DNA of 64,000 bases from positions 1 through 64,000 of the forward strand of contig CACXLY010000009.1 of the NCBI GenBank assembly GCA_902768605.1. The letters run 5' to 3'. The stretch comes from an uncultured Bacteroidales bacterium. GTDB lineage: Bacteria; Bacteroidota; Bacteroidia; Bacteroidales; Bacteroidaceae. Made by a program: the position numbers and the translations under genes. The notes under the pieces are model-generated. The model had not been told where the DNA came from. It was given only the letters and a program-made list of their open reading frames with translations, and made no database searches. Below are positions 19,652 to 59,648 of the stretch, piece after piece (the stretch's first letter is position 1; each line of letters starts with the position of its first letter).

Positions 19652-21784
<2,133 letters not shown>

Positions 21785-22612: not shown

Positions 22613-22616
22613 CGCC

Positions 22617-23345: not shown

Positions 23346-23407
23346 CCTCCTTCCCCAGCCCTCCGCCAACGGGAAGGGAGGGGAAAATGGCTGCCACGCC
23401 GCGGGGC

Positions 23408-24736: not shown

Positions 24737-24752
24737 TCAAGGTTAGTTAATC

Positions 24753-26105: not shown

Positions 26106-26145
26106 ATTGATGATATTTAGGTTGATACTTTATGATGATTCACGC

Positions 26146-26245: not shown

Positions 26246-26266
26246 CTTCCGGTGCCTCTTTTCAGC

Positions 26267-27010
26267 TCACTTTTTCTTCTCGCTTGCCCTGGTGCATACC
26301 ACCTGTCCGTCGTACGCCAGGCTTATCTTCTTGTACTTGTTCCAACCCACGCGCTCCAGACCCTCGCGGTAGAAGGTGCGCAGGCGGCTGAGCTTGTCGT
26401 AGAAGTTGTCGGTGCTGCCCAGCTCGATGATGTGCTGTCCGACGCGCGGATACAACTCTATCTCCTCGGGGCTGACGACGTGTATCTGCTCGATCTGCTC
26501 GCTCCAGAAGAGGTCGTCGTGAATGTATCGGGCGAGCTCCAGAAGGTGTTCGGAGGCGAATTTCTTCGTGACGTTTCCCGTGGCCACGCACAGCTCGACG
26601 TTGAAGCCGGCGGTGGGCATCGTCAGGCCCGTGCTCGAGAGGTAGTAGTCCTCGCCCTTCGCGCTGATGACGTGCAGTATAGGCTGCTGCGGCACGACCT
26701 TTATGCAGAGACGGCCCGCCGCGTCGTAGTAGCAGGAGGCACTTTCGATGTGCGACTCCTCGAACATCAGCTGCTCTATCTGCTCCAGGTTGATGTTGCT
26801 GATCTTCATGCCCTGAGGCGATATCTTGTTCTTTGTCAGAAGCGAGCGGATGTAGTCGGCCGTGATGAAGCCATCAGGGATGCTGTCGATGATCTCGACG
26901 CGCACGCCCTCGCACGTCCTGTCCTCGGCCTCGCCGCCAAACTTCCAGATGGCCACCACGAGGTATCCCACAACTGCCAGAAGCAGAAAGATCTTGAATG
27001 CTGTCTTCAT
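26267..27010 (-). CDS. ftsQ: Cell division protein FtsQ
   Basis: 247 residues: short cytoplasmic start, one membrane segment (FKIFLLLAVVGYLVVAIWKF, 5-24), then a POTRA-like domain (VRVEIIDSIPDGFITADYIRSLL) and the FtsQ beta domain (LELARYIHDDLFWSEQIEQIHVVSPEEIELYPRVGQHIIELG). It bridges early and late divisome proteins. Its start overlaps the murC stop by four bases (ATGA). Confidence 0.88.
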   Translation of the reverse strand: MKTAFKIFLLLAVVGYLVVAIWKFGGEAEDRTCEGVRVEIIDSIPDGFITADYIRSLLTKNKISPQGMKISNINLEQIEQLMFEESHIESASCYYDAAGRLCIKVVPQQPILHVISAKGEDYYLSSTGLTMPTAGFNVELCVATGNVTKKFASEHLLELARYIHDDLFWSEQIEQIHVVSPEEIELYPRVGQHIIELGSTDNFYDKLSRLRTFYREGLERVGWNKYKKISLAYDGQVVCTRASEKKK

Positions 27011-28377: not shown

Positions 28378-28419
28378 GCTTTCTTCTCCTCTTTATGACG
28401 TTATATCGTTCTTTCGTTA

Positions 28420-29538: not shown

Positions 29539-29557
29539 GTACATCAATTAATATATG

Positions 29558-30778: not shown

Positions 30779-30816
30779 TGGTCATTATTTTATAGGTACT
30801 ATATATATTATAGTTA

Positions 30817-32151: not shown

Positions 32152-32220
32152 CTATTCATTTACCATTTAATCATTTACCATTTACCATTTCCTCCCCTTG
32201 CGGTGGAGTTGGAGGTGGCT

Positions 32221-33486: not shown

Positions 33487-33542
33487 TCGTTGACGTTTAC
33501 TTTATGTTGAGTTTTCTTGTTCTTTTTCATGTCTTCTGAAAC

Positions 33543-33645
33543 CCCTCGTGAGGCATCGGCCGCTCCTTGCTATGGCGTCGGCCGCTCCTTGCTGTGGCAT
33601 CGGCCGCTCCTTGCTGTGGCGTTGGGCTTTCCTTGCTGTAGCGTT
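33543..33645. repeat. 22-bp-period array between murE and mraY
   Basis: Cores at 33550 (GAGG), 33572 (ATGG), 33594, 33616 (GTGG) and 33638 (GTAG), every 22 bp, ending next to the murE stop. With the array at 26146 it is one of two inside the dcw cluster; the flanking halves GGCCGCTCC are also conserved between units. Confidence 0.9.
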
Positions 33646-33646
33646 T

Positions 33647-35098
33647 TCAAAGGCCAAATGCGTCGCGTATCACCTCGTGGTCGTCGAAGTGGTGCTTCAC
33701 GCCCTTGACGATCTGGTAGTCTTCGTGTCCCTTGCCGGCCACGAGCACTACGTCGCCGGGCTGCGCCATGGTGCAGGCGGTGCGGATTGCTTCGCGGCGG
33801 TCCACGATGCTGAGTACGCTGCGGCGCTGACTGGCATCGAGTCCGGCCAGCATATCGTCGATGATGGCCTGCGGGTCTTCATTGCGGGGGTTGTCGCTCG
33901 TGATGATGACGCGGTCGCTGTGCCTGACGGCCTCCTGCGCCATCAGGGGGCGCTTGCCCTTGTCGCGGTTGCCGCCCGCGCCGCATACCGTCCAGCACTG
34001 TCCCTTGCCCTGCAGCACCTCGTTGATGGTCGTGAGGACGTTGACGAGGGCATCGGGCGTGTGGGCGTAATCGACGATGGCGGTGACGCCCTCCCGCGAG
34101 CGGATGGCCTCGAAGCGACCGTTGACGGGCTTCTGCGCGCTGAGGAGCACGAGGGCCTGCTGCGGCTCGACGCCCAGCATGACGGCCGTGCCATAGACGG
34201 CCAGCAGGTTGCTCACGTTGAAGCGCCCCACGAACTGCACGCTGACGTCGCGGCCGTCAATCTCCAGGTCCATGCCTTCGAAGCTCTCCTCCATGATGCG
34301 CGCCTTGAAGTCGGCAGCCGAGTGGAGCGAGTAGGTCTTGACCGTCGCCTTGCAGTTCTGCACCATGACCATGCCGTTGCGGTCGTCGGCGTTGATGATG
34401 GCGAAGGCATCGGCGGGCAGGGCGTCGAAGAAGCCCTTTTTCGCGTCGCGGTAGGCCTCGAACGTGCCGTGGTAGTCCAGGTGGTCGCGCGTCAGGTTGG
34501 TGAAGATGCCGCCCGTGAAGGTGAGGCCTCCGATGCGCTTCTGGCTGACGCTGTGCGAGCTGACCTCCATGAAGGCGTATGCACAGCCCTCGTCGGCCAT
34601 GCGGCCCAGCAGGCGGTTCAGCGTGATGGGGTCGGGCGTCGTCACCTCCGTGGGGATGGGCTCGCCGTCGATATAGTTGCAGACCGTGCTGCAGAGGCCG
34701 CACTTGTAGCCAAGCTGACGGAATATGTTGTAGAGCACGGTGGCGATGGTGGTCTTGCCATTCGTGCCGGTGACGCCGACGAGATGCATGCGCTCGCTCG
34801 GGTTGCCGAAGAAGTGCGTGGCAAGCGTGCCGACCACGTCCTCCGTGCTGGGATAGACCAGATAGGTGACGTCGTCCCTGGTCACCTCAGGCAACTGCTC
34901 GCAGACCACGACGCCTGCGCCCAGCTCGATCGCCTTGTCGATGAAGGTATGTCCATCCACTTGCGTGCCGCGCATCGCCACGAAGGCCGCGCCCTGCTGT
35001 ATGCGGCGGCTGTCGATTTCGATGCCGGTCACCTCCCTGTCCGTGCTGCCCACGATGCGCTGTGGTGCGCAGCCATGTATGAGTTGTTCAAGTTTCAT
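33647..35098 (-). CDS. murE: UDP-MurNAc-tripeptide synthetase
   Basis: 483 residues. [20 protein letters not shown] (about 105-124) is the ATP loop; [32 protein letters not shown] and NGRFEAIRS follow. [19 protein letters not shown] contains the DNPR motif of enzymes that add meso-diaminopimelate, so the stem peptide should carry mDAP at position 3. It lies 65 bp after ftsI. Confidence 0.96.
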
Positions 35099-35163
35099 TG
35101 CTATCGTATTTCAGTATTATCCGAGTCTTCATAGTGTTCAGAGTGTCCGGGACAGCCCATTGC

Positions 35164-37278
35164 TCACAGTTTCCTGGGCGAGGCGGTCAGGTTGATCTGC
35201 TTTCCCTTGACGGCCACCGTGCCCGGGGCGATGTCCTGCTTTGTTATCTCGCCGACGCCGTTGATGCGGACGCGCAGACCGCGCTTCTGCAGGGTGAAGA
35301 CCGCGTCCTTCACGCCCATGCCGACCACATCGGGTACCCTGTCGTCCGCTATCGTGTCGGCATCGGCCAGGCTAAGCTGTTTGCCCGAGATGCCCATGCC
35401 CTCGACGATGGCCTCGGCTCTGCGCTTGTTGCCCTTCGTCACCTCAGGCACGAAGACGCTGTTCGTGTCGGCAGCCAACGCGGCACTCTGCATCGAGTCC
35501 CTCGACATGATAAACTGCGATATCTCGCTGAAGACGGGTCCGCACTGCCCACCGCCGGAAGCCGGCAGGCCTTTCTTTCGGATGCAGACGATGCAGCTGT
35601 ACTTCGGGTCGTCGCTTGGGAAGTAGCCGCAGAAGCTGACCATATACTTGCGTCCGGCATACGAGCCGTTCTCGCTGAACTGTGCCGTTCCGGTCTTGCC
35701 GCTCACCTTGAAGAGCTTGCCGCCATTGCCGGCCTTCCTGCCCAGGCCGCCGCTCACGACGTGCTCCAGGCAGTATTGGATGTCGCGGAGCGTCGAGGGC
35801 TTGCATATCCTCTCCTTGATGACCTCCGTCGGGAACTCACGTATCACCATGCCGTCCTTCAGCTCAGCCTTCACGAAGCGAGGCTTCACCATCTTGCCGC
35901 CGTTGGCAATGGCGTTGTAGAACGTCAGCGTGCTGATGGGCGGCAGCATCGTGACGTAGCCGATGCTCATCCATGGCAGGTCGGGCTTGCTCCAGTAGCG
36001 TTTCTTGTCCTTCGGGTGGGGCACGTAGGGCTCACCCTTGCCCACGAAGGGCAGATTGAGCGGGATGCCGACGCCCTCGCGGTGGAGACCATCGACGTAG
36101 GCCGACGGATTGTCGCTGTAAGCACGGTCGATGATGGTGCTCACGCCGATGTTGCTGCTCTGCCCAAGTATGTCCTCCACCTTCAGCGTGCCATAGCCGC
36201 CGCGATGCCAGTTGTGGTCCTTCATGTTCCTGCCATGCATCTGGACGATGCCCGGCGCACAGTTCACGCTGGTATTGAGGTCGATCTTGCCGTCCTCAAG
36301 CGCCACCATGATGCTCGCCGTCTTAAACGTCGAGCCCGGCTCCCAGAGGTCGCTCACGGCGTTATTCTTCATCTCGTAGTACTCCCCGTCTTCGCCGCGC
36401 GTCAGGTTGACGATGGCCTTCACGTCGCCTGTCTTCACCTCCATCACGACAACGACACCCACCTCGCCGTTCACCAGCTCTTCTTTGAGCTTGCTACGCA
36501 ATGTGCGGTCCGCGAAATCCTGTATGTTGATGTCGATCGTGGTGAGGAGATCGTGCCCGTTCTCTGCTTGCGTGTCGATGATTGGCACCAGGCGATTGCG
36601 CATCACAATGAAATGCTTCGAGCCCGGCTTGCCTCGCAGGATGCTGTCGAAGCTCAATTCGAGGCCGCACTTAGGCTTGCTGCTCGTGTCGTTATACAGT
36701 TCGCCGATGGTGCGGCTCGCCAAGCCGCCGTACGGCTTAAGGCGGAGAAGCATCTCGTCGGCGTGGAAGCCGCTGCGATACATGCTCTCGCGAAGGAAGG
36801 GCAATTCTTTGCAAGCACGATACTGTACGTAAGTGGCCAGCTTCGGATAGATGCGCCACGAGTACTTGCCACGCTGTTTGCCCTGCAGCAGACGCTGTCG
36901 GAACCACTCGGCCTCGCGGTCGGGGAAGATGCGTGCAAGGCCTCGGGAGATGCTGTCCAGGTCGACGCGGAAGGCGGAGTCGCGGAAAGCGCGGGTCTTT
37001 GCCTCGATATTCGAGTCCGGATCGTGCACGGCGAAATCCATGTAGAGTGCGTATTTGGGCACCGTTCCCGAGAGTACCTGGCGGTCGCACGACAGGATGT
37101 TGCCGCGGTTGGCCGGTATTTGGGCCGTCCGGCTGTTGAGTCCCACCGCCTTCCAGTACTCGTTCTCGGGCGGCAGCATTGTATAGAGAGCCTTGCCCAG
37201 GATGTATAGTCCTGCGAGACACATCAAGACGAAGATGACGAAGTAGCGTCTGGGAGCTTTATCTTTGCCAGTTTGCAT
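35164..37278 (-). CDS. ftsI: Division transpeptidase FtsI (class B PBP) with PASTA domain
   Basis: 704 residues. One membrane segment (YFVIFVLMCLAGLYILGKAL, 13-32), a dimerisation domain with SRTAQIPANRGNILSCDRQVL, then the transpeptidase: PGSTFK around 313 (acylated Ser), SSN around 374 and KTGTAQ around 527. The C-terminal ~58 residues form a PASTA domain (VPDVVGMGVKDAVFTLQKRGLRVRINGVG), unusual compared with E. coli FtsI but common in Bacteroidetes. It crosslinks septal peptidoglycan with FtsW. Confidence 0.95.
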   Translation of the reverse strand: MQTGKDKAPRRYFVIFVLMCLAGLYILGKALYTMLPPENEYWKAVGLNSRTAQIPANRGNILSCDRQVLSGTVPKYALYMDFAVHDPDSNIEAKTRAFRDSAFRVDLDSISRGLARIFPDREAEWFRQRLLQGKQRGKYSWRIYPKLATYVQYRACKELPFLRESMYRSGFHADEMLLRLKPYGGLASRTIGELYNDTSSKPKCGLELSFDSILRGKPGSKHFIVMRNRLVPIIDTQAENGHDLLTTIDINIQDFADRTLRSKLKEELVNGEVGVVVVMEVKTGDVKAIVNLTRGEDGEYYEMKNNAVSDLWEPGSTFKTASIMVALEDGKIDLNTSVNCAPGIVQMHGRNMKDHNWHRGGYGTLKVEDILGQSSNIGVSTIIDRAYSDNPSAYVDGLHREGVGIPLNLPFVGKGEPYVPHPKDKKRYWSKPDLPWMSIGYVTMLPPISTLTFYNAIANGGKMVKPRFVKAELKDGMVIREFPTEVIKERICKPSTLRDIQYCLEHVVSGGLGRKAGNGGKLFKVSGKTGTAQFSENGSYAGRKYMVSFCGYFPSDDPKYSCIVCIRKKGLPASGGGQCGPVFSEISQFIMSRDSMQSAALAADTNSVFVPEVTKGNKRRAEAIVEGMGISGKQLSLADADTIADDRVPDVVGMGVKDAVFTLQKRGLRVRINGVGEITKQDIAPGTVAVKGKQINLTASPRKL

Positions 37279-37332
37279 AATCTCTTTTCTCTAATCCCTA
37301 ATCTCTTTTCCTTGTTTCTGAATCCTCAATCC

Positions 37333-37860
37333 TTACTCTTGGGAATTGATGACATACGGCGCAACTTTGCTTGGTGTAAGCGTGCTGTCGCCCTGTTCGC
37401 GCAGTTTCTGTTCGAGCTGGCTCTGCCGGCAGAGTTGTGTGAGTTCGCTGACGCGGGTGATGCTGCGGTAACGCCAGTCCTTGAGCTCCGTCTCGAGTTC
37501 CGTCTCCTTCATTATCTCGACTTGTGCCTGATAACCATTCGTGATGTAGAGGAAGATGCCGGCGAGGACGAGGATTAACATTTTCCATTGGCTCAGAAAC
37601 CAACGGGGGGCTGCATCGAGCACCTGGCGGACGCTGTCGAGCGTCAACTCATCGACCTCGTCGTCGTCGCTGACGAGCGAACGCATCAGCTTCTCCTTGT
37701 CGCTGACTTGCTCGGGAGCGTCCTGCGCCTCTGCTGCCTCTGGGTTTTCCGATGGCTCGGAGGGTTCCGGGCTTTCAGCAGGCTCAGGGGATTCGGAGGG
37801 GTCGGAGGGGTCGTGCAACTCCTGCAACTCGTCGATGCTATCTAATTCAATCTCTGCCAT
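37333..37860 (-). CDS. ftsL: FtsL-like divisome protein with acidic N-terminal extension
   Basis: 175 residues. Residues 1-50 are a Pro/Glu/Ser tract of near-repeats (DPSDPSESPEP, SPEPSEPSENPEA), followed by one membrane segment (WKMLILVLAGIFLYITNGY) and a short helical periplasmic part (ELETELKDWRYRSITRVSELTQLCRQSQLEQKLREQG). The position between rsmH and ftsI, single membrane pass and coiled helix identify FtsL by synteny more than by sequence. The cytoplasmic extension makes it longer than classical ~100-residue FtsL. The stop is 54 bp from the ftsI start. Confidence 0.8.
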   Translation of the reverse strand: MAEIELDSIDELQELHDPSDPSESPEPAESPEPSEPSENPEAAEAQDAPEQVSDKEKLMRSLVSDDDEVDELTLDSVRQVLDAAPRWFLSQWKMLILVLAGIFLYITNGYQAQVEIMKETELETELKDWRYRSITRVSELTQLCRQSQLEQKLREQGDSTLTPSKVAPYVINSQE

Positions 37861-37868
37861 ATCGTGTC

Positions 37869-38798
37869 TTATAATTCTCTCTTTCTTGCGATGCGGAGCT
37901 TTGCCGAACGACTGCGCGGGTTGCTCTTCTGCTCGTCGTCGCTGGGGATTATGATGCTCCTGTTGACGGCCTCGAGTGGCGCTCCCGTCCGCCCGTAGAT
38001 GTCTGTCTCGACTTTTCCTTCGACGTTGCCTGCCTTGACGATATTCTTCACCATGCGGTCCTCGAGGGAATGGTAGGTGAGAATGCTGAGGCGGCCTCCC
38101 GGCCTGAGCAGCTCCGTCGCTGCGCTCAGCATCTGTCTGAGGGCGCCCATCTCGGCGTTGACCTCTATGCGCAGTGCCTGGAACACTCGCGCCAGGTCTT
38201 TCTTCTCGCGGTCATAGCCCATGAGTGGCCTGAGCACCTCGACAAGCTGTGTGGTCGTCTCGATGGGCTGTTGCTGGCGGGCCTTGACGATGGCTGACGC
38301 GATGCGGCGGCTGTTCTTCAGTTCGCCGTAGAGGTAGAGGATGTCTGCCAATTGCTGCTCGCTGTAATCTGCTACGATGCGCCCGGCCGTGAGGTTGGCC
38401 TGCCGGTTCATACGCATGTCGAGAGGTGCGTCGAAGCGGAAGCTGAAGCCTCGCCTCTCCTCGTCGAGGTGATGGCTACTGACACCGAGGTCGGCCAGGA
38501 TGCCGTCCACCTGCTCATGCCCGTAGTAGAGCATCCAGTTCTTGAGGAATCGGAAGTTGCTGCGGATGAAGGTGAAGCCAGCCTCGCCCTCCATGGCGCT
38601 GGCGTTGCTGGCGGCATCCTCGTCCTGGTCGAAGCTGTAGAGGTGGCCAGTGCCTGCCAGGCGCCGCAGTATCTCCCTGCTATGGCCGCCGCCGCCGAAC
38701 GTGAGGTCCACATAGATGCCTCCCGGCTTGATGTCGAGCCCATCGACTGCCTCCTTGAGCAGCACCGGCACATGATATTCCTCCTCACGCGTGTACAT
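37869..38798 (-). CDS. rsmH: 16S rRNA m4C1402 methyltransferase
   Basis: 309 residues: HVPVLLKEAVDGLDIKPGGIYVDLTFGGGGHSREIL (SAM site), LADLGVSSHHLDEERRGFSFRFDAPLDMRMN, LARVFQALRIEVNAEM and the C-terminal LSILTYHSLEDRMVKN are RsmH (MraW) signatures. It methylates the 16S rRNA decoding centre. Second gene of dcw, eight bp before ftsL. Confidence 0.96.
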   Translation of the reverse strand: MYTREEEYHVPVLLKEAVDGLDIKPGGIYVDLTFGGGGHSREILRRLAGTGHLYSFDQDEDAASNASAMEGEAGFTFIRSNFRFLKNWMLYYGHEQVDGILADLGVSSHHLDEERRGFSFRFDAPLDMRMNRQANLTAGRIVADYSEQQLADILYLYGELKNSRRIASAIVKARQQQPIETTTQLVEVLRPLMGYDREKKDLARVFQALRIEVNAEMGALRQMLSAATELLRPGGRLSILTYHSLEDRMVKNIVKAGNVEGKVETDIYGRTGAPLEAVNRSIIIPSDDEQKSNPRSRSAKLRIARKREL

Positions 38799-38814
38799 TA
38801 TATTATATTGTTTA

Positions 38815-38868
38815 GGCCTTATGGGGCTTATGGGGCTTATAGGACTTATAGGGCTTATGGGCCTTATG
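38815..38868. repeat. 9-bp minisatellite between mraZ and rsmH
   Basis: Six tandem 9-bp units of the type CTTATGGGG/CTTATAGGG lie just before the rsmH start on the operon's leader side. The family is the complement-like partner of the AGCCCCATT repeat at 21836. Confidence 0.85.
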
Positions 38869-38888
38869 GGTTCGGCTCATTGGGCTCT

Positions 38889-39344
38889 TTACTGCCCTGC
38901 TGGGTCGTTCATCATCTCCTCTAAGATGTCGGCCACCTCGTCGGGATTGCTGAGCAGATCCTCGGCGGCCTGTTTGCTCCAGATTTCTATGGTATCGTCC
39001 ACGCCGATGAATCGCACGTCGCTCTTTATGCCGGCGTGTTCGAGGTAGCGACGCGGGATGAGCATGCGTCCCCCGCTGTCGAGCGTGATGTTCTCGGCGT
39101 CGGCAGTGAAGAGCCTGAGCCCTTGCCGCTGGTGACGGTTGAAGAGGTTGGTGCGGGCGCGTACGGCATTGACCTGCGCATCCCACACGCTCTTCGGATA
39201 GAGCACAAGGCAGTGCTCGAAGATGTCGCGGCGAAGCACCAGTCCTTCCTCCGCCTCCTTCTGGAGGATTTTACGGAAGACGCTGGGCACGAAAACGCGT
39301 CCCTTCTCGTCTGTTTTGGCATCTATACTTCCTGTAAATCTCAT
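38889..39344 (-). CDS. mraZ: Transcriptional regulator MraZ
   Basis: 151 residues from Met at 39344 (MRFTGSIDAKTDEKGRVFVPSVFRKIL); the frame is open upstream to 39398 but that would overlap the promoter. Two AbrB-like SpoVT halves are visible: DEKGRVFVPSVFRK and, around residue 80, DSGGRMLIPRRYLEHAG, each with the DxxGR motif. MraZ binds repeated TGGG boxes in the dcw promoter and regulates the cluster; such boxes are present at 39386-39405. Confidence 0.93.
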   Translation of the reverse strand: MRFTGSIDAKTDEKGRVFVPSVFRKILQKEAEEGLVLRRDIFEHCLVLYPKSVWDAQVNAVRARTNLFNRHQRQGLRLFTADAENITLDSGGRMLIPRRYLEHAGIKSDVRFIGVDDTIEIWSKQAAEDLLSNPDEVADILEEMMNDPAGQ

Positions 39345-39376
39345 CGATTCGGGGCTTTCTTTGCAAATTCTGCTGC

Positions 39377-39384
39377 AAAGATAC
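39377..39384 (-). promoter_or_regulatory. dcw cluster promoter -7 element
   Basis: Minus-strand TATCTTTG close to 39377-39384, in the context TATCTTTGCAGCAG, about 35 bp before the mraZ start. It directly abuts the MraZ boxes. Confidence 0.7.
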
Positions 39385-39385
39385 A

Positions 39386-39405
39386 CAATTCCCCACAATT
39401 CCCCA
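39386..39405 (-). promoter_or_regulatory. Two MraZ boxes (TGGGG-AATTG direct repeats)
   Basis: Minus strand carries TGGGGAATTG twice in tandem, 10 bp apart, immediately upstream of the -7 element. MraZ is known to bind TGGGN motifs spaced by five bases in its own promoter, so autoregulation of the dcw cluster is expected. A further inverted pair, TTCCCCAC (39553-39560) and GTGGGGAA (39573-39580), lies upstream. Confidence 0.75.
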
Positions 39406-39618
39406 CACTTTCTGCAATTTTTTTTTCAGAAGATTTTCGCTTATGTTGTTAATAACCTCGCGGCGCGCTATTCCTCAACTCGCGCGGAATGCCCATAAAC
39501 AAAGAGGTTTCAGTGCATTATGAGTTGTCAAAACAGGTGGTTGAAAACTTTTTTCCCCACTTAGCAAAAATGGTGGGGAACTTTTGGAAAGAATCGATTT
39601 TTTAGGTCAGAAATGCAA

Positions 39619-39655
39619 ACGCCACACGTGGGATGACGTTTTCCACGTGTGGCGT
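39619..39655. repeat. CACGTG palindrome downstream of the M16 peptidase gene
   Basis: ACGCCACACGTGG and its exact inverted copy CCACGTGTGGCGT form a hairpin. The sequence matches the CACGTGGGAA units at 381-475. It probably serves as 3'-end structure for the minus-strand peptidase gene. The rest of 39406-39686 holds no gene. Confidence 0.75.
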
Positions 39656-39686
39656 ATCTGTTGTGAAGCGGTCGGGGCGGGTTTCC

Positions 39687-40922
39687 TCAGACGTACTCGA
39701 GGGTCAGCAGGCGGTCGGGGGCGAAGACGTGCTGTGCGGTGGAAAGCAGGTCTTCGGGAGTGATGGCGTCGAGCCGCTCGAAGAACTGCTCCTTCGTGAG
39801 CGTCTTGCCGTAATGGAGATAGCGTTTCGCCATGCCGAGCGCGACGTTCTCGAAGCTGTCGTACGAGATGCCGATCTGCCCTTTCAGCTGACGGCGTGCG
39901 GCATCGATAGTGCGCTGGGAGAGAGGATGTTGCGTGAGGCGGTCGAGTTCGTGCGCCACGAGCCGCCGGCAGCGGGCGCGGTCCTTGGCGTCGCATCCGT
40001 AATAGACCGACCAGAGGCCCGTGTCGGTATAGGCCGTGCAAACGCTCTCGACGGTGTAGACCAGGCCATTGCGCTCGCGCAGGGCGAGGTTGAGACGGCT
40101 GCTCATGGCCGGACCGCCCAGCATGTTGCTGAGGAAATAGAGGTGGAGCTGGCGCGGGTCGGAGGCTCCGAAAGCCTGTGCGCCGACCACGACGTGCGCC
40201 TGGTGCGTGTCCTTCTCGCGGACGACGTGGGCACCCCCACATGAGGCGTCGGCCGACGCTTGCTGTGGGAAAGGCTCCTCCTTGCTGTGGGAAAGGCCGA
40301 CGCTTGCTGTAGCATTTTTCGCGGCCAGCCGGACCACCTTTTCGGGGTCCACGTTGCCGAGCACGTAGAGTACCATGCGGTCGGGGTGATAGAGGCGATG
40401 GGCGAAGCGCTGCATGTCGGCGGAGCGGAACGTCCGGAGCGTCGCGGCGTCGCCCAGTATGTTGCGGCCGAGCGGGTGCCCGGGGAAGAGCAGGCTTTCG
40501 AACTCGTCGAAGATGAGCTCGGAGGGCTGGTCATTGTAGCTCTCTATCTCATCGATGACCACCTCCGCCTCGCGCCCCATCTCGTCCTGAGGATAGGTGC
40601 TACGGAGGGCGATGTCGAGCAGGAGGTCGATGGCCTTGTGGACGTGCTGCTGCAGGCAGGTGCAGTAGTAGATGGTCTCCTCCTTGCCGGTGAAGGCGTT
40701 CAGGTCGCCGCCCACGCGCTCCATGGCGGAGATGACCTGCCTGGCGGAGCGGTGCTCGGTCCCCTTGAACGACATGTGCTCCGTGAAGTGTGCCATTCCG
40801 CTCTCCGAAGGCAGTTCGTGGCGCGTCCCGGCATCGACCGCGATGCCGAGGTACACGACGTCCGTCCGGCCCGGAGCGCAGATGACGCGGAGCCCCCCTG
40901 GAAGGGTGAAAGTATGGAACAT
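39687..40922 (-). CDS. M16-family zinc peptidase carrying an in-frame repeat array
   Basis: 411 residues. The inverted zinc motif HFTEH is at 45-49 (SGMAHFTEHMSFKGT), followed by the second zinc ligand region EAEVVIDEIESYNDQPSE and the partner-domain segment LNLALRERNGLVYTVES. M16 enzymes of this size (pitrilysin/MPP type) degrade peptides; here there is no signal peptide, so it is probably cytoplasmic. Residues ~202-229 (HSKEEPFPQQASADASCGGAH) are encoded by four units of the 22-bp repeat (40236-40315), in frame, at the linker between the N-terminal domain and the VREKDTHQAHVVVG strand. That linker is variable in relatives, so the enzyme may still work. Confidence 0.88.
   Translation of the reverse strand: MFHTFTLPGGLRVICAPGRTDVVYLGIAVDAGTRHELPSESGMAHFTEHMSFKGTEHRSARQVISAMERVGGDLNAFTGKEETIYYCTCLQQHVHKAIDLLLDIALRSTYPQDEMGREAEVVIDEIESYNDQPSELIFDEFESLLFPGHPLGRNILGDAATLRTFRSADMQRFAHRLYHPDRMVLYVLGNVDPEKVVRLAAKNATASVGLSHSKEEPFPQQASADASCGGAHVVREKDTHQAHVVVGAQAFGASDPRQLHLYFLSNMLGGPAMSSRLNLALRERNGLVYTVESVCTAYTDTGLWSVYYGCDAKDRARCRRLVAHELDRLTQHPLSQRTIDAARRQLKGQIGISYDSFENVALGMAKRYLHYGKTLTKEQFFERLDAITPEDLLSTAQHVFAPDRLLTLEYV
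40236..40315. repeat. 22-bp-period array inside the M16 peptidase gene
   Basis: Cores at 40243 (GAGG), 40265, 40287 (GTGG) and 40309 (GTAG), exactly 22 bp apart; same family as at 48643 (TTGCTGTGGGAAAGGC). It is read through as protein. Confidence 0.92.
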
Positions 40923-52327: not shown

Positions 52328-52544
52328 CTTCTGCCCTCTCCTATTTATATTTTAGCGGCGTCTCCTTACTTCCTTGTTTCGAACCTGAATTTTCTGCAAA
52401 GTTACGAAAAAGGAGCACAACTTCGAAGCAAAAGGCGGAGAAAATTGCATCGCCCCCATGTTTTTGGAGGTAAAGACCGCATTCGGATGACCGCTCCGAG
52501 TAGCGAGGCCCTGCAGTTGCTATTTGTTTCTTCCTCTCACAATT

Positions 52545-52648
52545 CTTCCCAAAGTCCGCACCTTGACGTGAAAAGTCCAGCCTTCGCACACTGAAAAGAG
52601 ATATTGCAAAGCTGTGTCCGCCTCCACCATGTGCGGACTTTGGGAAGA
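52545..52648. repeat. Two GTGCGGACTTTGGGAAG motifs
   Basis: One copy on the minus strand (52545-52562) and one on the plus strand (52631-52647). They belong to a 17-bp motif that recurs about a dozen times between 50.4 and 57.4 kb and that I did not see elsewhere in the window. Confidence 0.8.
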
Positions 52649-52654
52649 TTTTGC

Positions 52655-53035
52655 GCAGAACCCATAAGCCCCCAAAACGCCCATTACCCCCATTACCCCA
52701 TAATGCCCATTAGCCCCCAAAAGCCCATTAGCCCCATTAACCCACAATGCCCATTAGCCCCCAAAAGCCCATTAACCCCATTACCCCATAATGCCCATTA
52801 GCCTCACATCGCCCATTACCCCCATTACCCCATAATGCCCATTAGCCCCCAAAAGCCCATTAACCCCATTACCCCATAATGCCCATTAGCCCCAAAACTC
52901 CCATTAGCCCCATTAACCCACAATGCCCATTAGCCCCCAAAAGCCCATTAACCCCCAAAAGCCCATTAACTCCATTACCCCATAATGCCCATTTACCCCA
53001 TTAACCCCATTTAGCCCATTTACCCCATTAGCCCC
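52655..53035. repeat. 44-bp (2 x 22) tandem array made of 9-bp-like units
   Basis: AATGCCCATTAGCC recurs at 52702, 52746, 52790, 52834, 52878 and 52922, exactly 44 bp apart; each 44-mer is two 22-bp halves (AATGCCCATTAGCC… and CCCATTAACCCC…). A further unit at 52984 follows after an 18-bp expansion. No coding potential. Confidence 0.93.
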
Positions 53036-53062
53036 ATAAATCTCCCGACCATTGGGGAATAG

Positions 53063-53249
53063 TTCCCAAAGTCCGCACCTTCTCTTTTTTGCTTTCGTGG
53101 TTTTATATACTTCTTGGTGCGAACTTTGAGAACACTCTTTGGGTCGAGGTGCGGACTTTGGGAAGAAATCGGCTGCGAAGTGCGGACTTTGGGAAGATTT
53201 TTCGTAGGATTTATTGTTTCCTCTGCATCCTGGTGCGGACTTTAGGAAC
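53063..53249. repeat. Cluster of GTGCGGACTTTGGGAAG motifs
   Basis: Copies at 53063-53079 (minus) and 53117, 53149, 53180 and 53233 (plus), with substitutions in the two outer plus-strand copies. Two more degenerate copies are at 53416-53432 (minus) and 53458-53474 (plus). Spacing is 31-53 bp, unlike the 22-bp arrays. Candidate protein-binding sites of the replicon locus. Confidence 0.8.
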
Positions 53250-53318
53250 AAACGGTGGTAGTTTTTCGGCTTGAAGTGGGCAGTCTGCTCTGCTGCCTGA
53301 TGCTTTGCTCCCTATTAA

Positions 53319-53428
53319 AGTCAGGCTTTCTCGAAAAAGAAGTCAAGCTTTCACGAAGTTAAAGTCAGGCTTTCTCGAAAAAGAAGTCAAGCTTTCCCAA
53401 AGTTGAAGTCAGGTTTTCCCAAAGTTCG
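53319..53428. repeat. 22-bp-period array, AGTCAGGCTTTC core
   Basis: AGTC starts at 53319, 53341, 53363, 53385 and 53407, exactly 22 bp apart. The last unit grades into the CCCAAAGTTCGCACC motif. The remaining gene-free sequence 53433-53983 holds a looser CACGTG array (ACGT near 53640, 53664, 53684 and 53708) and nothing gene-like. Confidence 0.93.
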
Positions 53429-53983
53429 CACCTTCGTGGGTTGCTTTGGGCTATTTGGTGCGAATATCAGGAACAAATTTATGGAAAAAGATGCGAAAAA
53501 GGTGCACCCTTGTGATGAAAAAAACTGAAAAATTAGAAAAAGCGTTACAAATCTGAAGAATATTTTCGGCGCTTCCTGTTGAATTTTGAAGTCATTGGTT
53601 TTCAAGCAGTCAACTTGTGCTGTCAAATTGGCAAACGCAACGTGTTGAATCCGCCTTTCCTACACGTAGCATTTGCCTTTCCCACGTGTGGGAATTGACT
53701 TCGCCACACGTGGAATCAAATAACTATCGATTTTAAGGAAATATGGTGATGCTAAAGCAGAGCAAAACCTTAGGAAAAAACTTTACAACTTTTTTATGAC
53801 CTTCCTGAAACGACCTCATTTTGAGGCCAAAAACTCCTCAATTTGAGCGTTTTTACACTCAATATTGGAAAAAACCATCTGCCCGCTCCGATTGGGCGAA
53901 ACGAGCAACGGCAAGGCAGCGCCCGAAGAGCCGAACGCTCCCCTACCCTACTCGCGATGTGAAGCTGGAAGCGGTTCCCTCGC

Positions 53984-54355
53984 TCAAACCCACTGATAGA
54001 CGCTGTCCTCGTACTGCTCGATGATGCGCATCGACTCTGCATCGAGGCCCTGGCCCTCCTTGTAGTGCTGCTTCAGGAATTGATGGAGAGCGGCGCGCAC
54101 GACGTTCTGCTTCTCCAGTTTCTGACGGAAAGCGATGTAGTCCAGTGCGTTGCGGTCGTCTTCCGCAGTGAAAAACGTGAAGCCGCCCACCTTCTGGATG
54201 GTGCAAACGCGACGCAAAGGCTTCGGTGCCGGCGTCTCCTGCACGATCTTGTTGCGCACGGCATCGTTGCTGGCCAAAGGCTTCGGAGCCACGTAGTTCT
54301 GCGTAGCTTCGGCCGCTACCCTGCTGATATTCAGCGCCTTCTTCTTGATTGCCAT
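53984..54355 (-). CDS. Small basic protein downstream of parA (ParB/ParG-like candidate)
   Basis: 123 residues: MAIKKKALNISRVAAEATQNYV, a flexible basic N-terminal half, then VCTIQKVGGFTFFTAEDDRNALDYIAFRQKLEKQNVVRAALHQFLKQHYKEGQ. The second half looks like a ribbon-helix-helix or similar small DNA-binding fold. It lies 76 bp after parA on the same strand, where partition operons carry the centromere-binding partner. I do not recognise a named family; the partner role rests on position, size and charge. Confidence 0.65.
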   Translation of the reverse strand: MAIKKKALNISRVAAEATQNYVAPKPLASNDAVRNKIVQETPAPKPLRRVCTIQKVGGFTFFTAEDDRNALDYIAFRQKLEKQNVVRAALHQFLKQHYKEGQGLDAESMRIIEQYEDSVYQWV

Positions 54356-54431
54356 AATCTTGTCCTCCTCTGTTCTATGGTATTTCGATGTGTTTTCTGG
54401 TGAATTCTCTCATATTCAAACACCCAAGTAC

Positions 54432-55343
54432 TCAGGTTTCTGAATACTCAGATATTTGAGTACTCCGCTCTTTGATGAAGTTGTCGTAGGCTGCGTTTGC
54501 TATCTGGCCCCACTTGGCAGGCGTCCAGGTCTTCGGACGCGCCTTGCGGCCTATCATGAACTCTGCTACGCGCATATAGTCGTCGGCCACTGGGCTGTTG
54601 CTGGCATACTCGAAGAGCGACATCTCGTAAGCAACTGATTCCGTGCAACGTACGCTCTCGCGAACACTCACGGGAAACAACGGAGCCTTAACCTCGTCCT
54701 CATTGCTGTAGTACTCCTTTACCTCACGACTGATGCTGCGATTCTTGTTCCAGCGGACCAAAAGGTAACCCATGATACGGACCGGGCAGCGGAGTTGGGT
54801 GTGCACCTTATTTATATAGTCGAGCAGACGCGGAAGGCCCTGCAGACTATAGATGCCGGCTTCGGTCGGGACTATCACGAAATCGCTGGCTACCAAAGCA
54901 TTAGTATTCATCAGCGTCTCGCCGCCCGGGGCGCAGTCAATGAAGATGTAGTCGTACATGTCGCGAATCCTGAGTCCACTGTCGGGGTCAATCAGGTCGA
55001 GGAAATCAGCCAGACGACGTTCTCGATTGTACATCAACTGCAGTTCCGCGTTGATATTGCTCATGCTGTGACTGCCGGGAACGTAGTCCAGACCGTCATA
55101 GCGCGTGTAGATCGGCAGCGGGAGCGACTCGCCCGGAACGCTGTCGTGCAGCCACTCGTAGATAGTGCTATCCGCCTCTAAATGAACGGTTTTGTCGACG
55201 GTATCAGTCAGGTTGCACTGCGGGTCAGTATCGACGAGCAGTACCTTCTTGCCGAGCAGCCACAGGGCAAAGCCCAGGTTGACGCACGTCGTTGTTTTCG
55301 CGCAGCCACCCTTATCGTGTAAAAGAGAAATAACTTGTGACAT
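54432..55343 (-). CDS. parA: ParA-type partition ATPase
   Basis: 303 residues. Deviant Walker A HDKGGCAKTTTCVNLGFALW (KGGxxKT, residues 11-17), LLVDTDPQCNLTD (A'), YIFIDCAPGGETLMNTNALVASDFVIVPTEAG (Walker B region) and SLQGLPRLLDYI identify ParA/Soj. These ATPases move plasmids or chromosomal origins together with a centromere-binding protein. No N-terminal HTH domain, as in the chromosomal and type Ib forms. It diverges from the initiator gene across 2.1 kb of repeats. Its last codons (TQISEYSET) are written in a 9-bp-like repeat also found around the intergenic AT-rich region. Confidence 0.92.
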   Translation of the reverse strand: MSQVISLLHDKGGCAKTTTCVNLGFALWLLGKKVLLVDTDPQCNLTDTVDKTVHLEADSTIYEWLHDSVPGESLPLPIYTRYDGLDYVPGSHSMSNINAELQLMYNRERRLADFLDLIDPDSGLRIRDMYDYIFIDCAPGGETLMNTNALVASDFVIVPTEAGIYSLQGLPRLLDYINKVHTQLRCPVRIMGYLLVRWNKNRSISREVKEYYSNEDEVKAPLFPVSVRESVRCTESVAYEMSLFEYASNSPVADDYMRVAEFMIGRKARPKTWTPAKWGQIANAAYDNFIKERSTQISEYSET

Positions 55344-55440
55344 AATCTATACGTAATTACTTTGTCGTTACCTTTTCTTCCTAAATATTTGAATATCCCA
55401 GGCAGAGGGAATAACCATCTTGCTACGCTGGAAATTCAGT

Positions 55441-55473
55441 TGCAAAGGTAAAGCTTTTCATCGACAACTGCAA
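55441..55473 (-). promoter_or_regulatory. parA promoter
   Basis: Minus strand TTG (55471-55473), 20 bases, TACCTTTG (55443-55450), giving a leader of about 95 bases. Confidence 0.7.
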
Positions 55474-55484
55474 GAAAATACCTA

Positions 55485-55770
55485 AATATTTTCAAATATC
55501 TGCATACTTTTATACTTGGATAGGTCGAGATATCTGAATATAAACGCGGATTATACAGGAAAAATAGCGAGTTATATAGTATTGTATTTGGATATTTAAG
55601 GATATGCAAATAGTTAGGTATTGTGAAGTATTCGAAGACTTGAATAGTGAAGAATGCGGATACGTGAGTATGGGAGTGTGCAGATATCTGAATATAAATG
55701 AACACAGATACAAAGAAATTTGAGTATGCAAATATTTGGATATACGAATATAACGGGTAGGAAGAAATGG
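55485..55770. repeat. AT-rich segment with 22-bp phasing (possible unwinding element)
   Basis: Strongly AT-rich sequence. The 16-mer GATATCTGAATATAAA occurs at 55529 and again at 55683, exactly 154 bp (7 x 22) apart; GCGGA recurs at 55546 and 55656 (5 x 22). Cutting the stretch into 22-mers from 55485 gives ~12 loosely similar units. A DNA-unwinding role is inferred from position and composition only. The purine-rich tract 55770-55880 (GAGAGG/GATGAAA runs) follows. Confidence 0.6.
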
Positions 55771-55891
55771 GGTAGGGAGAGAGGATGAAAGAATAAAACG
55801 ATGAGAGGGGAGAGGGAAAACGATGAGAGGGGAGTTAAAAGAAGATGAAAAGGGAGAGAAAAGAAGATGAAAGGGGAGAGAAAAGCAAATG

Positions 55892-55978
55892 TTCTGCAAA
55901 TTCGCACCAATAGTACATGAAGACTGCACCAGATGTTCTGCAGATTCGCACCTTATGTTCACGGAGTTCGCACCAGTT
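55892..55978. repeat. 22-bp-period array of TTCGCACC units
   Basis: Units start at 55892, 55914, 55936 and 55958, exactly 22 bp apart, each ending in TTCGCACC or CTGCACC. On the minus strand this is GGTGCGAA, the left half of the GTGCGGACTTTGGGAAG motif. Confidence 0.88.
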
Positions 55979-56150
55979 GGGGATTAAAGCAATAAGTGAC
56001 AGAGAGTTAGATCAAAGGATAACTATTATAAGATATACAATATTATATAATAGGAGAATTCTTTTAGAATATCGTTTATCACAGTATCGAATTATATAGT
56101 TTATCGAAATGCGTAACTGCTTGTGTGTTATTGGAGTAGGGGATAGCTGG

Positions 56151-56238
56151 TGCGGAGTTTAGGAAGAGTAGGTGAGGGGTTCGTGAAGTATTCGTGAAGA
56201 GGAAGGGGGCATTTGGTGCGGAGTTTGGGAAGAATTGG
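56151..56238. repeat. 22-bp-period array of GTGCGGAGTTTGGGAAG units
   Basis: Full motifs at 56151 and 56217 (66 bp apart) with half-motifs GTGA at 56173 and 56195, all in one 22-bp register. Confidence 0.85.
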
Positions 56239-56348
56239 CGTGAGGTGGCACATTATGTTTAGATGAAATGTGACTACGGATATATTATCTCAAAAAAAAA
56301 TTGCTTTAGGGGTTTACAAAACGAGGGGTGGCGAGTATATATATAATT

Positions 56349-56581
56349 ATTGCTGTCCGGGGAAAAGCACCGAAGGTGCGAAAGACCACAGACGGGGGTG
56401 TTAACCCCCGGGACAGGATAACCTAACAATAGTAAGCCCTGGAAGGGCGACAGAATATGTAACTTGTTTAATAATAACTTGCTTATGGCTCTGTCGTCCT
56501 TTCAGGACTTTCTCTGTCGTCGCAACATTACCGGGGGTTGTCACCCCCGTCTGTGGTCTTTCGTCTCTTCGAGACACCAAT
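56349..56581. repeat. Mirrored hairpin element (R3), internally shortened
   Basis: 233 bp starting ATTGCTGTCC and ending CACCAAT. Six small hairpins in mirror order: GCACCGAAGGTGC (56367), CGGGGGTGTTAACCCCCG (56393), GCCCTGGAAGGGC (56436), then GTCCTTTCAGGAC (56496), CGGGGGTTGTCACCCCCG (56532) and GTCTCTTCGAGAC (56563). A 22-base segment at 56379-56400 is the exact reverse complement of 56542-56563, so the whole element can fold as one long arm. Confidence 0.8.
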
Positions 56582-56632
56582 AATATATAATAGAAGCAGG
56601 GTAGGGGAGGGAGCCAGGGCGATACAGTTTCC

Positions 56633-56885
56633 TTGCTGAGGGAAGGGCAGAACCTTGCAGAAGGAAGTGGAGTTGTCTGCTGTAGCAGGGACGTGAAGTT
56701 GCTTTGATAGAGACGTTTACTTGCTATGGCGGGGTTGTTTCCTTGCAGAGGGAAGTGGAGTTGCTTGCAGAGGGAAGTGGAGTTGCTTGCTGTGGCAGGG
56801 GCGTTTCCTTGCTGTGGCGTGGATGATTTCTTGCGATGGGAGGGTTTTCAAGTTGCTGTGGCGGGGACATTCTGTCGCGGAGAAG
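56633..56885. repeat. Long 22-bp-period array, TTGCTGTGG core
   Basis: Cores at 56638, 56660, 56682, (56706, off register), 56726, 56748, 56770, 56792, 56814, 56836, 56858 and 56880; all but one share a single 22-bp register over 242 bp. Units vary (GAGGGAAG, GTGGCAGG, ATGGGAGG) but keep CTTGC before the core. Confidence 0.93.
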
Positions 56886-56896
56886 TGAGACTTTTC

Positions 56897-57390
56897 GAGA
56901 CAAAGGGGCGAAACATCCTTGTGCTGGCTGCATGAAGAGCGAGGTGTAAGACTTTGGGCAGACTAACGTGCAAGAATCAGGGTCATGCTGGTGAAGAATC
57001 CTGTCCAAATGCTGGTGACGATGGACGAGAACAGAGATGTGACGGCCTGCATGAAGACTTATGTACGAGCGGAATGTAACATCGATGTAGGAGAGAACGG
57101 TCACATCTGCGTACGAAACACGCTCACATCTACGTACGAAACAGCAGCCGTTTCCTCTTGCGAGAGGTGATGAATACCTTCGTGACAGGTATCGATAACA
57201 AGTCTGTGCGGAGGACATGATTCTTCATGTGCGAGGGACGAAGCATATCGACGTGACGGAATCGGAGATGAGTCTTGTGCGGAGACGGAATGCATTGCCG
57301 TGCGACGACGAGATGCATCACGATGCGATGGCTGGTGACAGCTAAGTGCGAAACTCATCTAACAGCTAAGTGCGAATGTTTGGAACACTT
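56897..57390. repeat. Iteron-like array upstream of the initiator gene (23-24 bp period)
   Basis: GTGC/GTGA/GTAC cores at 56921, 56944, 56968, 56991, 57015, 57039, 57063, 57087, 57111, 57134, about 57160, 57182, 57206, 57229, 57253, 57277, 57300, 57323, 57346 and 57370. Steps are 23 or 24 bp with one disturbed pair. The last unit, GTGCGAATGTTTGGAAC, matches the 17-bp motif spread over 50.4-56.2 kb. The array ends about 50 bp before the initiator start, the usual place for replication iterons. Confidence 0.82.
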
Positions 57391-57436
57391 TAAAACATAA
57401 TTCTAATATTTTTTACTGAAAAATTTGCATAATACG

Positions 57437-58933
57437 ATGGAAAACTTTAATTTTGCAGCTGAAAACTTATTTGAAGACGAAGAAATGGCCAAAAAGAAAG
57501 GACCTGCTATAGTCAGCACGACGAACGAGCTGGTGCAGACGATAGCGAACAATCGCGACCTGGATTTCATTCTCAATCCGGTGAGCTACACACAGATACG
57601 CGGCAACTTCTCGTTGGTGCAGACCAACCTGATGATAGCCATCATCTCGCAGTTGCAGAACCGCATCCGCGAGCAGCTGAGCATCGGCGAGAAGTCGTTC
57701 CTCTTCAAGCCAGAGGACTTGACGGGCAACCTGCTCAACTTCGAGATACCGCTGAAGGAGCTTGGCATCAGCCCGAAGAAGTACGGCGAGCTGGAGGCGG
57801 CTTGCGAGGCGTTGCTCCACGTCGATATGTCCTACAAGCGTTGGGACGAGTACGAGCGTCAGGAGTATAATGTGAAGCAGAACATCTTCCACAAAATCGA
57901 GTTCCCGACGGCCGAATTGAATGCAGCCGGCGAGAAGGTGGCCTACAAGGGCGGGCAGCGACGGAAGGGCGTCATCAAAATCTCGATGGTGGACGAGAGT
58001 GCCCGCGAGATTCTGAACCTTCGCAAGGGCTACACGCGCCACCTGAAAGGCATCACGCAGCTCTGCCGCAGCCCTCGCACGCCGCGACTCTACATCTACC
58101 TGAGCGCCTGGCGGAAGTACGGCTCCTGCAAGGTGAACTACATCGACCTGAAGGAGTTCTTCGGCGTGCTCACTTTCAGCAAGGACCACAAGCGCATCGT
58201 CGAGAACCGTTACGTCAAATACGGCGCCTTCCATCGCGACGTGCTCGACCCCGTGCTCAAGGAGATGAAGAAGCTGTCGGACGAAGGCAAGGTGGAGTTC
58301 TGCTTCGAGTACGAGCCCATCTACCCCCACGGCGTCAGTCGTGGCGACCCGGACAGCATCCGCTTCACCATCATCGAGGGCAAGATGGGTCAGGCGCAGC
58401 TGCACGAGAGTTTCCTGGGCAAGATGCGCGCCAAGCTCATCACGAAGTACGCCCTGCAGCCCAGCGAGTGGGCCAGGCTCGAGGACCTCATCTACGACGG
58501 GCTCGACCTTAAGCCCGAGCTGGACCGCATCGACAAGCTCGTCGAGGACAAGCAGCCCGACAACGTCCACGCCTACGTCACCGAGGTGCTCTACCGCTGG
58601 CTCCTGGAGCAGCAAAAGCCCAAGCAGCCGGAGTTCACGGAAGCCGTCGAGGTGAAGGACGAGGCGCTGGAGCGTCCGTTCGTGCAGCCCGTCTATCTCG
58701 AGAAATGGAACCTCTGGATGGAGAAGGCCAGGGAGCGCCTGGGCGAGCAGTTCTACAACCAGTACATGACCTGCTGCAGCCTCTGGGCGGTGCGCGACAA
58801 GAACGTCCTGGTGTCCGTCCCCAACAAGTTCGTCTCCGAACAATGGGAAGAACATCTCAGCGAAATCGTCAGCTACTTCTACAGCGCATTCGGTGCCGAC
58901 AAGACGCTGACGTACGTCTTCCAGGACGTTTAA
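57437..58933 (+). CDS. Rep_3-type replication initiator with DnaA domain I-like C-terminus
   Basis: 498 residues from ATG at 57437 (MENFNFAAENLFEDEEMAKKKG); a TTG 12 bases upstream is possible but less likely. Residues ~30-330 fit the Rep_3/RepB initiator fold: NPVSYTQIRGNFSLVQTNLMIAIISQLQ, FKPEDLTGNLLNFEIPLKELGISPKKYGELEAACEALL (first winged helix) and CRSPRTPRLYIYLSAWRKYGSCKVNYIDLKEFFGV (second winged helix). The last 75 residues (NLWMEKARERLGEQFYNQYMT… VLVSVPNKFVSEQWEEHLSEIVSYFYSAFGADKTLTYVF) align well by eye with DnaA domain I, the DnaB- and DiaA-contacting part. Predicted role: bind the upstream iterons, open the origin and recruit the helicase. Confidence 0.85.
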   Translation: MENFNFAAENLFEDEEMAKKKGPAIVSTTNELVQTIANNRDLDFILNPVSYTQIRGNFSLVQTNLMIAIISQLQNRIREQLSIGEKSFLFKPEDLTGNLLNFEIPLKELGISPKKYGELEAACEALLHVDMSYKRWDEYERQEYNVKQNIFHKIEFPTAELNAAGEKVAYKGGQRRKGVIKISMVDESAREILNLRKGYTRHLKGITQLCRSPRTPRLYIYLSAWRKYGSCKVNYIDLKEFFGVLTFSKDHKRIVENRYVKYGAFHRDVLDPVLKEMKKLSDEGKVEFCFEYEPIYPHGVSRGDPDSIRFTIIEGKMGQAQLHESFLGKMRAKLITKYALQPSEWARLEDLIYDGLDLKPELDRIDKLVEDKQPDNVHAYVTEVLYRWLLEQQKPKQPEFTEAVEVKDEALERPFVQPVYLEKWNLWMEKARERLGEQFYNQYMTCCSLWAVRDKNVLVSVPNKFVSEQWEEHLSEIVSYFYSAFGADKTLTYVFQDV

Positions 58934-59159: not shown

Positions 59160-59648
59160 ATGTCAGAGCAGTTAATCATTCAGGGCGAGACGAAGCAGGA
59201 GCGTTACGAAGCGCTTTTGCCGCAGATACAATCAGTAGTGGAGGACGAGCCCGACCTCATTGCCAACATGGCGAACGTGGCGGCGATGCTCCACGAGACG
59301 TTCGGCTTCTGGTGGACCGGCTTCTATCGCGTGGAGGGCGAAGAGCTCGTGCTCGGTCCGTTCCAGGGTCCGATGGCCTGCACACGCATCCGCAAGGGTA
59401 GGGGCGTATGCGGGACAGCTTGGGCGACGGCTGAGACGCAGGTAGTGCCCGACGTCGACAAGTTCCCCGGGCATATCGCCTGCTCGTCGGCCTCACGGAG
59501 CGAAATCGTCGTCCCCGTCTTCCATGAAGGACGCGTCGTTGCCGTTCTCGACATCGACAGCGCCCAGCTGGGCACCTTCGACCAGACCGACCGCCAATAC
59601 CTCGAACAAGTTGCTTTTTTCGTCTCGCCTGCACGGAAATTGAAATAA
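59160..59648 (+). CDS. msrC: Free methionine-(R)-sulfoxide reductase (GAF domain)
   Basis: 162 residues, a single GAF domain. FGFWWTGFYRVEGEELVLGPFQGPMACTRIRKGRGVCGTAWA and GHIACSSASRSEIVVPVFHEGRVVAVLDIDS are the fRMsr signature with the three conserved cysteines (ACT, VCG, ACS). It reduces free Met-R-sulfoxide in the cytoplasm using thioredoxin. Single gene, plus strand. Confidence 0.92.
   Translation: MSEQLIIQGETKQERYEALLPQIQSVVEDEPDLIANMANVAAMLHETFGFWWTGFYRVEGEELVLGPFQGPMACTRIRKGRGVCGTAWATAETQVVPDVDKFPGHIACSSASRSEIVVPVFHEGRVVAVLDIDSAQLGTFDQTDRQYLEQVAFFVSPARKLK

Follow-up and report, generated by a model that had tools for sequence, protein, structure and literature searches.

How does a chromosome-scale molecule begin its replication when the initiator encoded near its core genes is of a plasmid type, and does it need DnaA to do so? 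In two earlier accounts of plasmid-derived chromosomes, a contact between initiator and helicase is still to be shown (PMC6090056) and the origin of a second chromosome is called unknown (PMC4755523; these papers and PMC5448010 are cited throughout from excerpts). The question is raised by a locus on a 64,000-nt stretch of DNA from an uncultured Bacteroidales bacterium (GenBank assembly GCA_902768605.1, contig CACXLY010000009.1, positions 1 to 64,000), called the window below. There, the gene for a Rep_3-type initiator (rep) and the gene for a partition ATPase (parA) diverge from a gap of 2,093 bp (positions 55344-57436) that contains AT-rich stretches. This bears out a reading of the window's letters alone (the original prediction), which had described a parA operon and a Rep_3 initiator diverging from a 2.1-kb gap with an AT-rich segment.

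We found that the gap holds an iteron array with mirror-image arms, that GC skew switches sign beside the locus in five relatives, and that the initiator is fused to a domain of DnaA, which the original prediction had missed. All three are new here. The locus is probably a working Rep-type replication origin, with partition genes, for a molecule of chromosome scale on which gyrB and the division and cell wall (dcw) gene cluster also lie.

A mirror-image iteron array between parA and rep

We compared the window with 27 relatives from GTDB genomes, giving 28 loci. The relatives are metagenome-assembled genomes titled Bacteroidaceae, Prevotellaceae or Bacteroidales bacterium, with a ruminant host in 12 of the 27 titles, and the closest genome compared has 26% of the window's sampled 31-mers in common; the affiliation with Prevotella put forward in the original prediction is unconfirmed. 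At 26 of the 28 loci parA and rep diverge, the two remaining contigs ending too early, and the gap between the two genes is 1.0 to 2.5 kb long (at L031 and L034, whose contigs end in the gap, the term means the available stretch before rep). At L006 and L014 (contig C51 of G007) the rep match is split in two, one piece with an in-frame stop, a broken or misassembled copy.

From the stretches upstream of rep at all 28 loci we derived a 23-bp iteron, TGGTGCGAAgnTtgGGAACAcTT, as a matrix. The pooled stretches contain 558 pairs of 6-mers at a lag of 22 (11.5 in shuffles), and 26 of the 28 loci have copies of the 8-mer GGTGCGAA, 84 in all. At a threshold of at least 18 bits, the matrix has 212 matches in 39.5 kb of gaps. 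In 963 kb elsewhere it has 4, of which one or more (window position 50467) are close to the locus. Because this matrix was trained on the gaps that it scores, a matrix built from the relatives only and scored on the window is the fairer test; it found 18 sites in the 64 kb, including all six of the arms, the one before rep and nine beyond the partition genes (Table 1).

The original prediction had placed dozens of phased direct repeats in the gap. A 22-bp periodicity is indeed present: counting lags of 11 and its multiples, the window's gap has 90 pairs of 6-mers, compared to 3.5 in dinucleotide shuffles. The tandem repeats that had been singled out (55795-55882 and 56627-56868) were rejected as the conserved iteron, having no match to TGGTGCGAAgnTtgGGAACAcTT. 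The conserved sites in the gap are six in two arms and one putative operator, while nine more lie outside the interval originally described, beyond the partition genes.

The arrangement of these sites is conserved. Two inverted arms, with minus-strand iterons on the left and plus-strand iterons on the right, enclose a spacer of 143-174 bp and 17-32% GC in 27 of the 28 loci, including L041, which has an additional plus site near its left arm; the 28th locus is truncated. All 28 have a plus-strand iteron 48-115 bp ahead of the matched start of rep, which is the start of a tblastn match and not always the true start codon. Because the length of the gap is variable, it is the core of the origin that is conserved while its surroundings drift. 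The iteron pattern is present in seven of seven genomes with a window-type rep and in one of 17 others, where there is a single site, and the window-type iteron is absent among the repeated 8-mers in about 1.5 kb upstream of four divergent Reps (L007-L010).

P1 and F are iteron plasmids of the Rep_3 kind, and a classical origin of this sort has one block of direct-repeat iterons on one side of its AT-rich region and contains a DnaA box. The present origin differs in having two inverted arms around a spacer. None of the 27 spacers, the part of the gap judged for this, has a DnaA-box-like site within 0-1 mismatches of TTATCCACA. The iteron array, the operator copy and the N-terminal winged-helix domain of Rep fit Rep_3 iteron initiators, and Rep is predicted to bind the iteron.

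GC skew switches beside the locus and gene order is kept

A cumulative GC-skew analysis had been named beforehand as a check on the proposed origin. In relatives the proposed origin passed it: in five of five contigs (99-248 kb) the cumulative minimum lies beside the rep locus, at 1909 (G025), 1305 (G009), 1540 (G013), 615 (G124) and 3270 bp (G108) upstream of the matched rep start; this result comes from the relatives, the 64-kb window itself being too short to be judged. Going by gap length, three of the minima lie between parA and rep, another slightly within parA and the last at the region of a second iteron array. The contrast between left and right flanks has permutation P-values of 5e-5, 5e-5, 0.007, 5e-5 and 0.0016 for G025, G009, G013, G124 and G108, respectively, with 10 kb around the origin excluded; these values are optimistic in that 2-kb blocks were taken as independent. 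The contigs were picked for length, G108:C20 was used to 200 of its 224 kb, and other long rep contigs, such as those of G112, G179 and G182, are outside the sample.

Skew at third codon positions, computed on mechanical open reading frames and not on those of a gene finder, is higher on the right than on the left among genes of the same orientation in eight of nine comparisons, the exception being the minus-strand genes of G108, where it runs opposite. Consequently, gene direction alone is insufficient to explain the skew. On shorter flanks, skew is higher to the right than to the left at 17 of 21 comparable loci, including the window, and is not at the other four.

The original prediction's statement that the same molecule carries gyrB, the dcw cluster and ribosomal proteins held for the first two and, among ribosomal proteins, for S20, the sole one tested. 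Between 20 and 39 kb the window encodes gyrB, recO, ftsZ, ftsA, murC, an ftsW/rodA-family gene, mraY, an ftsI-type penicillin-binding protein and rsmH, together with another two Mur ligases, tRNA-Glu and ribosomal protein S20 (the names ftsW, ftsI and murE were given from the best model or from position). The order gyrB-recO-ftsZ-ftsA-murC-ftsW-murD-mraY-murE-ftsI-rsmH-M16-C69 peptidase-orf123-parA-rep-GAF is kept in G025, G013 and G108, and in G009 from recO, where its contig starts. Thus, by tblastn on joined stretches, the dcw-to-rep order is kept in four of five long contigs. The fifth, from G124 of a more divergent clade (rep 75% identical), has none of these dcw genes on its 189 kb. As in a chromid, plasmid-type replication and partition genes share one molecule with core genes, and base composition agrees with that class (in G013, 48.9% GC for the rep contig and 44.8-49.7% for windows of the dnaA contig).

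These results bear on whether the locus is instead an integrated plasmid, the main alternative of the original prediction, or a decaying mobile element, in which rep and the partition genes persist without origin function. Three observations weigh on that side and against a working origin: the cassette is plasmid-like, full-length window-type rep is patchy (25 of the 139 genomes of the genus), and the rep match of G007 is split, with a stop in one of its two parts. Set against them are the skew minimum in all five contigs, the arms and spacer length kept in 27 of 28 loci and the operator in 28 of 28, the position beside dcw in four of five contigs, and a search of 72,556 plasmid records in which no close Rep turned up. 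Of those records 38 matched Rep, none of them over 80% of the query; the 20 matches listed have 23.9-27.2% identity and reach no further than residue 342, short of the DnaA-like part. We consider integration without function highly improbable. The skew minima, the kept gene order and the conserved iteron layout together argue for the working chromosome origin that had been proposed, and point to a bidirectional, vertically inherited one rather than an integrated plasmid.

The initiator ends in a DnaA domain I

The N-terminal winged-helix domain of Rep (Rep3_N) scores 32.4 bits against a cut-off of 22.4 and is present in 21 of 21 aligned sequences. The second (Rep3_C) is weak, at 17.7 bits against a cut-off of 21.1, and has E<=0.05 in 19 of the 21. 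At its C terminus Rep carries a module that aligns with DnaA domain I, although the window protein's Pfam score is below the curated cut-off. The full DnaA model TIGR00362 matched at model positions 1-71 of 437 alone, so Rep is without the AAA+ domain III and the DNA-binding domain IV of DnaA. Judged by these alignments, the module is homologous to DnaA domain I; unlike in DnaA itself, it stands at the C terminus of another initiator and without the two other domains.

Phe465 of Rep, in the PNxF motif aligned with DnaA, is invariant in the 21 sequences, and is a Tyr in the divergent form of G032. It aligns with the Phe of the Bacillus subtilis DnaA PNEF motif, a position on the DnaB-binding surface of the protein in Escherichia coli (Phe46). 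There, Glu21 and Phe46 of domain I contact DnaB (PMC5448010), while in the excerpt of the same paper no helicase-binding role of that sort is known for B. subtilis domain I, so we infer the helicase step by homology to the E. coli protein. With that proviso, Rep on balance probably recruits the replicative helicase through its DnaA domain I.

A different reading of the module changes the helicase step only: DnaA and Rep would act jointly, and the module would dimerize Rep or pair iteron clusters instead of recruiting helicase. It gains from the presence of dnaA elsewhere in these genomes, from the two separated iteron clusters available for pairing, and from E. coli domain I, which dimerizes and has species-specific partners (PMC5448010). 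The 27 spacers free of DnaA-box-like sites speak against it, as does the invariance of Phe465 at the DnaB-binding surface, tempered by the Tyr of G032. We regard joint action as rather doubtful.

DnaA_N was undetected in the three named plasmid Reps scanned. Neither a Rep_3-DnaA fusion nor an origin of this kind is among the publications listed by a search of the open literature, with subscription papers and preprints outside its reach. A second, shorter Rep paralogue with the DnaA-I module (open reading frames of 395-445 aa) was seen in G102, G112, G124, G141, G168 and G179, genomes that already carry the long form; it is possibly the initiator of another replicon.

dnaA and the number of replicons

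A search for dnaA was another check named beforehand. dnaA was found in 43 of the 44 genomes searched, and in five of five window-type carriers (G006, G009, G013, G025 and G035) dnaA and rep are on different contigs; the carriers are draft genomes, and G013 was about half sampled. These placements suggest that the locus is on a second chromosome.

Alternatively, the molecule could be the only chromosome, its plasmid-type origin having displaced oriC so that no separate DnaA-driven chromosome exists. This is compatible with a working Rep-type origin, and is in keeping with the gyrB, dcw and S20 genes on the molecule and with the dnaA contig of G013 (C12), which has no origin-like switch, six of its seven sampled windows being negative. 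It is opposed by a second negative-to-positive skew switch in G013, near C16:197 kb, and by three opposite switches on C5, C10 and C17, a pattern that suggests more than one replicon or rearrangements. A single chromosome is therefore possible but unlikely.

We make no claim for the C16 switch as an origin: its neighbours are tRNAs, crcB and a urease operon, and its right flank measures only about 16 kb. With up to one mismatch, TTATCCACA occurs at most three times per 600 bp around this switch, and exact copies in five genomes form no cluster of three within 1 kb, so that the word is uninformative as a mark of oriC in both searches. In G012 the box occurs 3 times in 2.4 Mb compared to 18 for a reversed control, a depletion unseen in the other four genomes. 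At the three opposite switches of G013, a search for dif sites and shared words returned dispersed repeats and scattered dif-like words (among the best 80 of 121 words). The listed genomes from the genus of G001 are 61-97% complete, mostly in the 70s-80s, while 20 of 24 genomes of other families reach at least 90%; replicons missed in binning or gene losses in the lineage could account for this.

Proposed mechanism and known systems

In the mechanism that we propose, Rep would bind the 23-bp iteron via its winged-helix domains, and Rep complexes on the two inverted arms would face the AT-rich spacer from both sides. The spacer would melt, the DnaA domain I of Rep would bring the helicase to both strands at both edges, and replication forks would depart in both directions. 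ParA and orf123, encoded next to it, would segregate the replicated molecules. The lone iteron at the rep promoter may let Rep regulate its own synthesis, and the outer array, on the far side of the partition genes, may limit copy number by titration or pairing. P1 uses iterons for both autoregulation and copy control. We read the two elements in this way because the lone iteron and the outer array resemble those of iteron systems, as described for Vibrio (PMC6090056).

Taken as a whole, the proposal that a plasmid-type initiator with the helicase-recruiting domain of DnaA starts an essential, bidirectional chromosome without DnaA, its mirror-image arms placing a helicase to the left and another to the right of a central unwinding element, is tentative, with a chance somewhat short of even. 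If true, the fused domain I may let the initiator call in the helicase by itself, and the symmetry of the origin hints at how a plasmid origin could, by a simple route, come to replicate a chromosome in both directions.

The locus belongs with iteron-type chromosome or chromid origins. V. cholerae ori2 and its initiator RctB are alike in having iterons, an AT-rich region, a site at the initiator promoter, a restraining adjacent array and nearby partition sites, and differ in their initiator, in the DnaA domain found here and in the mirror-image arms (PMC6090056). In the excerpt of that account an RctB-DnaB interaction is still to be shown, and iteron chromids are placed in beta- and gammaproteobacteria. 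Nearer in taxonomy, the second chromosome of P. intermedia OMA14 is also from Bacteroidales, with housekeeping genes on a Rep_3 replicon and dnaA on the other chromosome (PMC4755523). In the excerpted description, neither iteron-like repeats nor maintenance genes were found near its rep, its GC skew lacks a clear transition, and its origin is called unknown, whereas iterons and partition genes are present here, with a skew switch in the relatives. The Rep of a 568-kb replicon of P. nigrescens has 388 aa, with DnaA_N undetected, and that replicon is absent among the 20 matches listed of 139 for gyrB and of 77 for ftsZ. On a 317-kb 'plasmid' of Segatella hominis (NZ_CP137560, L110), ftsZ stands beside a ParA gene that diverges from a Rep_3 gene over 2.6 kb; its layout is chromid-like, and DnaA_N was undetected in its Rep.

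Other repeats and neighbouring genes

The second iteron array, with 5-10 sites, is present in 16 of 25 relatives (L031 and L034 excluded); the other nine, all of the more divergent clade, are without it. By analogy with iteron systems, it is a putative copy-number control array. In the more divergent clade, iteron sites also occur inside parA. Within the array's span, C is in strong excess at positions 52001-53000 (GC skew -0.305), and positions 53000-53037 hold a 9-bp repeat, ATTAACCCC.

The A/T-rich repeats beside parA are candidate partition sites, and the motif ATATTTG is present in 27 of 28 gaps. An inverted repeat in the gap (56371-56571), whose 41-nt copies are 88% complementary and separated by 119 nt, is possibly a small dispersed element.

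Table 1. Features of the window; coordinates are window positions.
Feature	Coordinates	Strand	Remarks
gyrB, rpsT, tRNA-Glu, recO, dcw (ftsZ-ftsA-mur-ftsW-mraY-ftsI-rsmH), M16-type peptidase gene	19724..40922		
Second iteron array, 9 sites, downstream of partition genes	52541..53478	both	found by relatives-only matrix
orf123, small protein downstream of parA	53984..54355	-	
parA, partition ATPase	54432..55343	-	AAA_31 E 1.2e-38, 133 bits
A/T-rich 14-17 bp repeats, AAATATTTGAATAT type, beside parA	55383..55754		
Further relatives-only-matrix sites	55619 (weaker), 50467		
Left origin arm, 3 iterons	55887..55975; starts 55887, 55931, 55953	-	also found by relatives-only matrix
AT-rich spacer, putative DNA unwinding element	55976..56147		172 bp, 31% GC
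Right origin arm, 3 iterons	56148..56236; starts 56148, 56170 (weak), 56214	+	
Single iteron, putative autoregulatory operator	57368..57390	+	69 bp before rep ATG
rep	57437..58933	+	498 aa; ATG at 57437; Rep3_N E 1.5e-7
Rep domains			residues: Rep_3 winged-helix domain 1 (WH1) 52-222, weak winged-helix domain 2 (WH2) 256-312, linker, C-terminal DnaA domain I ~419-498
rep segment coding DnaA domain I-like module	58691..58930	+	
GAF-domain protein gene 3' of rep	59160..59648	+	

orf123, which adjoins parA in 26 of 28 loci, encodes the presumed centromere-binding partner of ParA. It matched no Pfam family at E<=0.001 and none in NCBIfam at E<=1, and nothing convincing appeared in Pfam or PDB at E<=10. 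On the other side of the locus, the fetched stretch includes the GAF gene in 15 of 16 nearer-clade relatives and in none of nine of the other clade. The window also encodes surface proteins of the fimbrillin/Mfa type and a BspA-type leucine-rich repeat protein, at 10498-16712 and 41996-44245.

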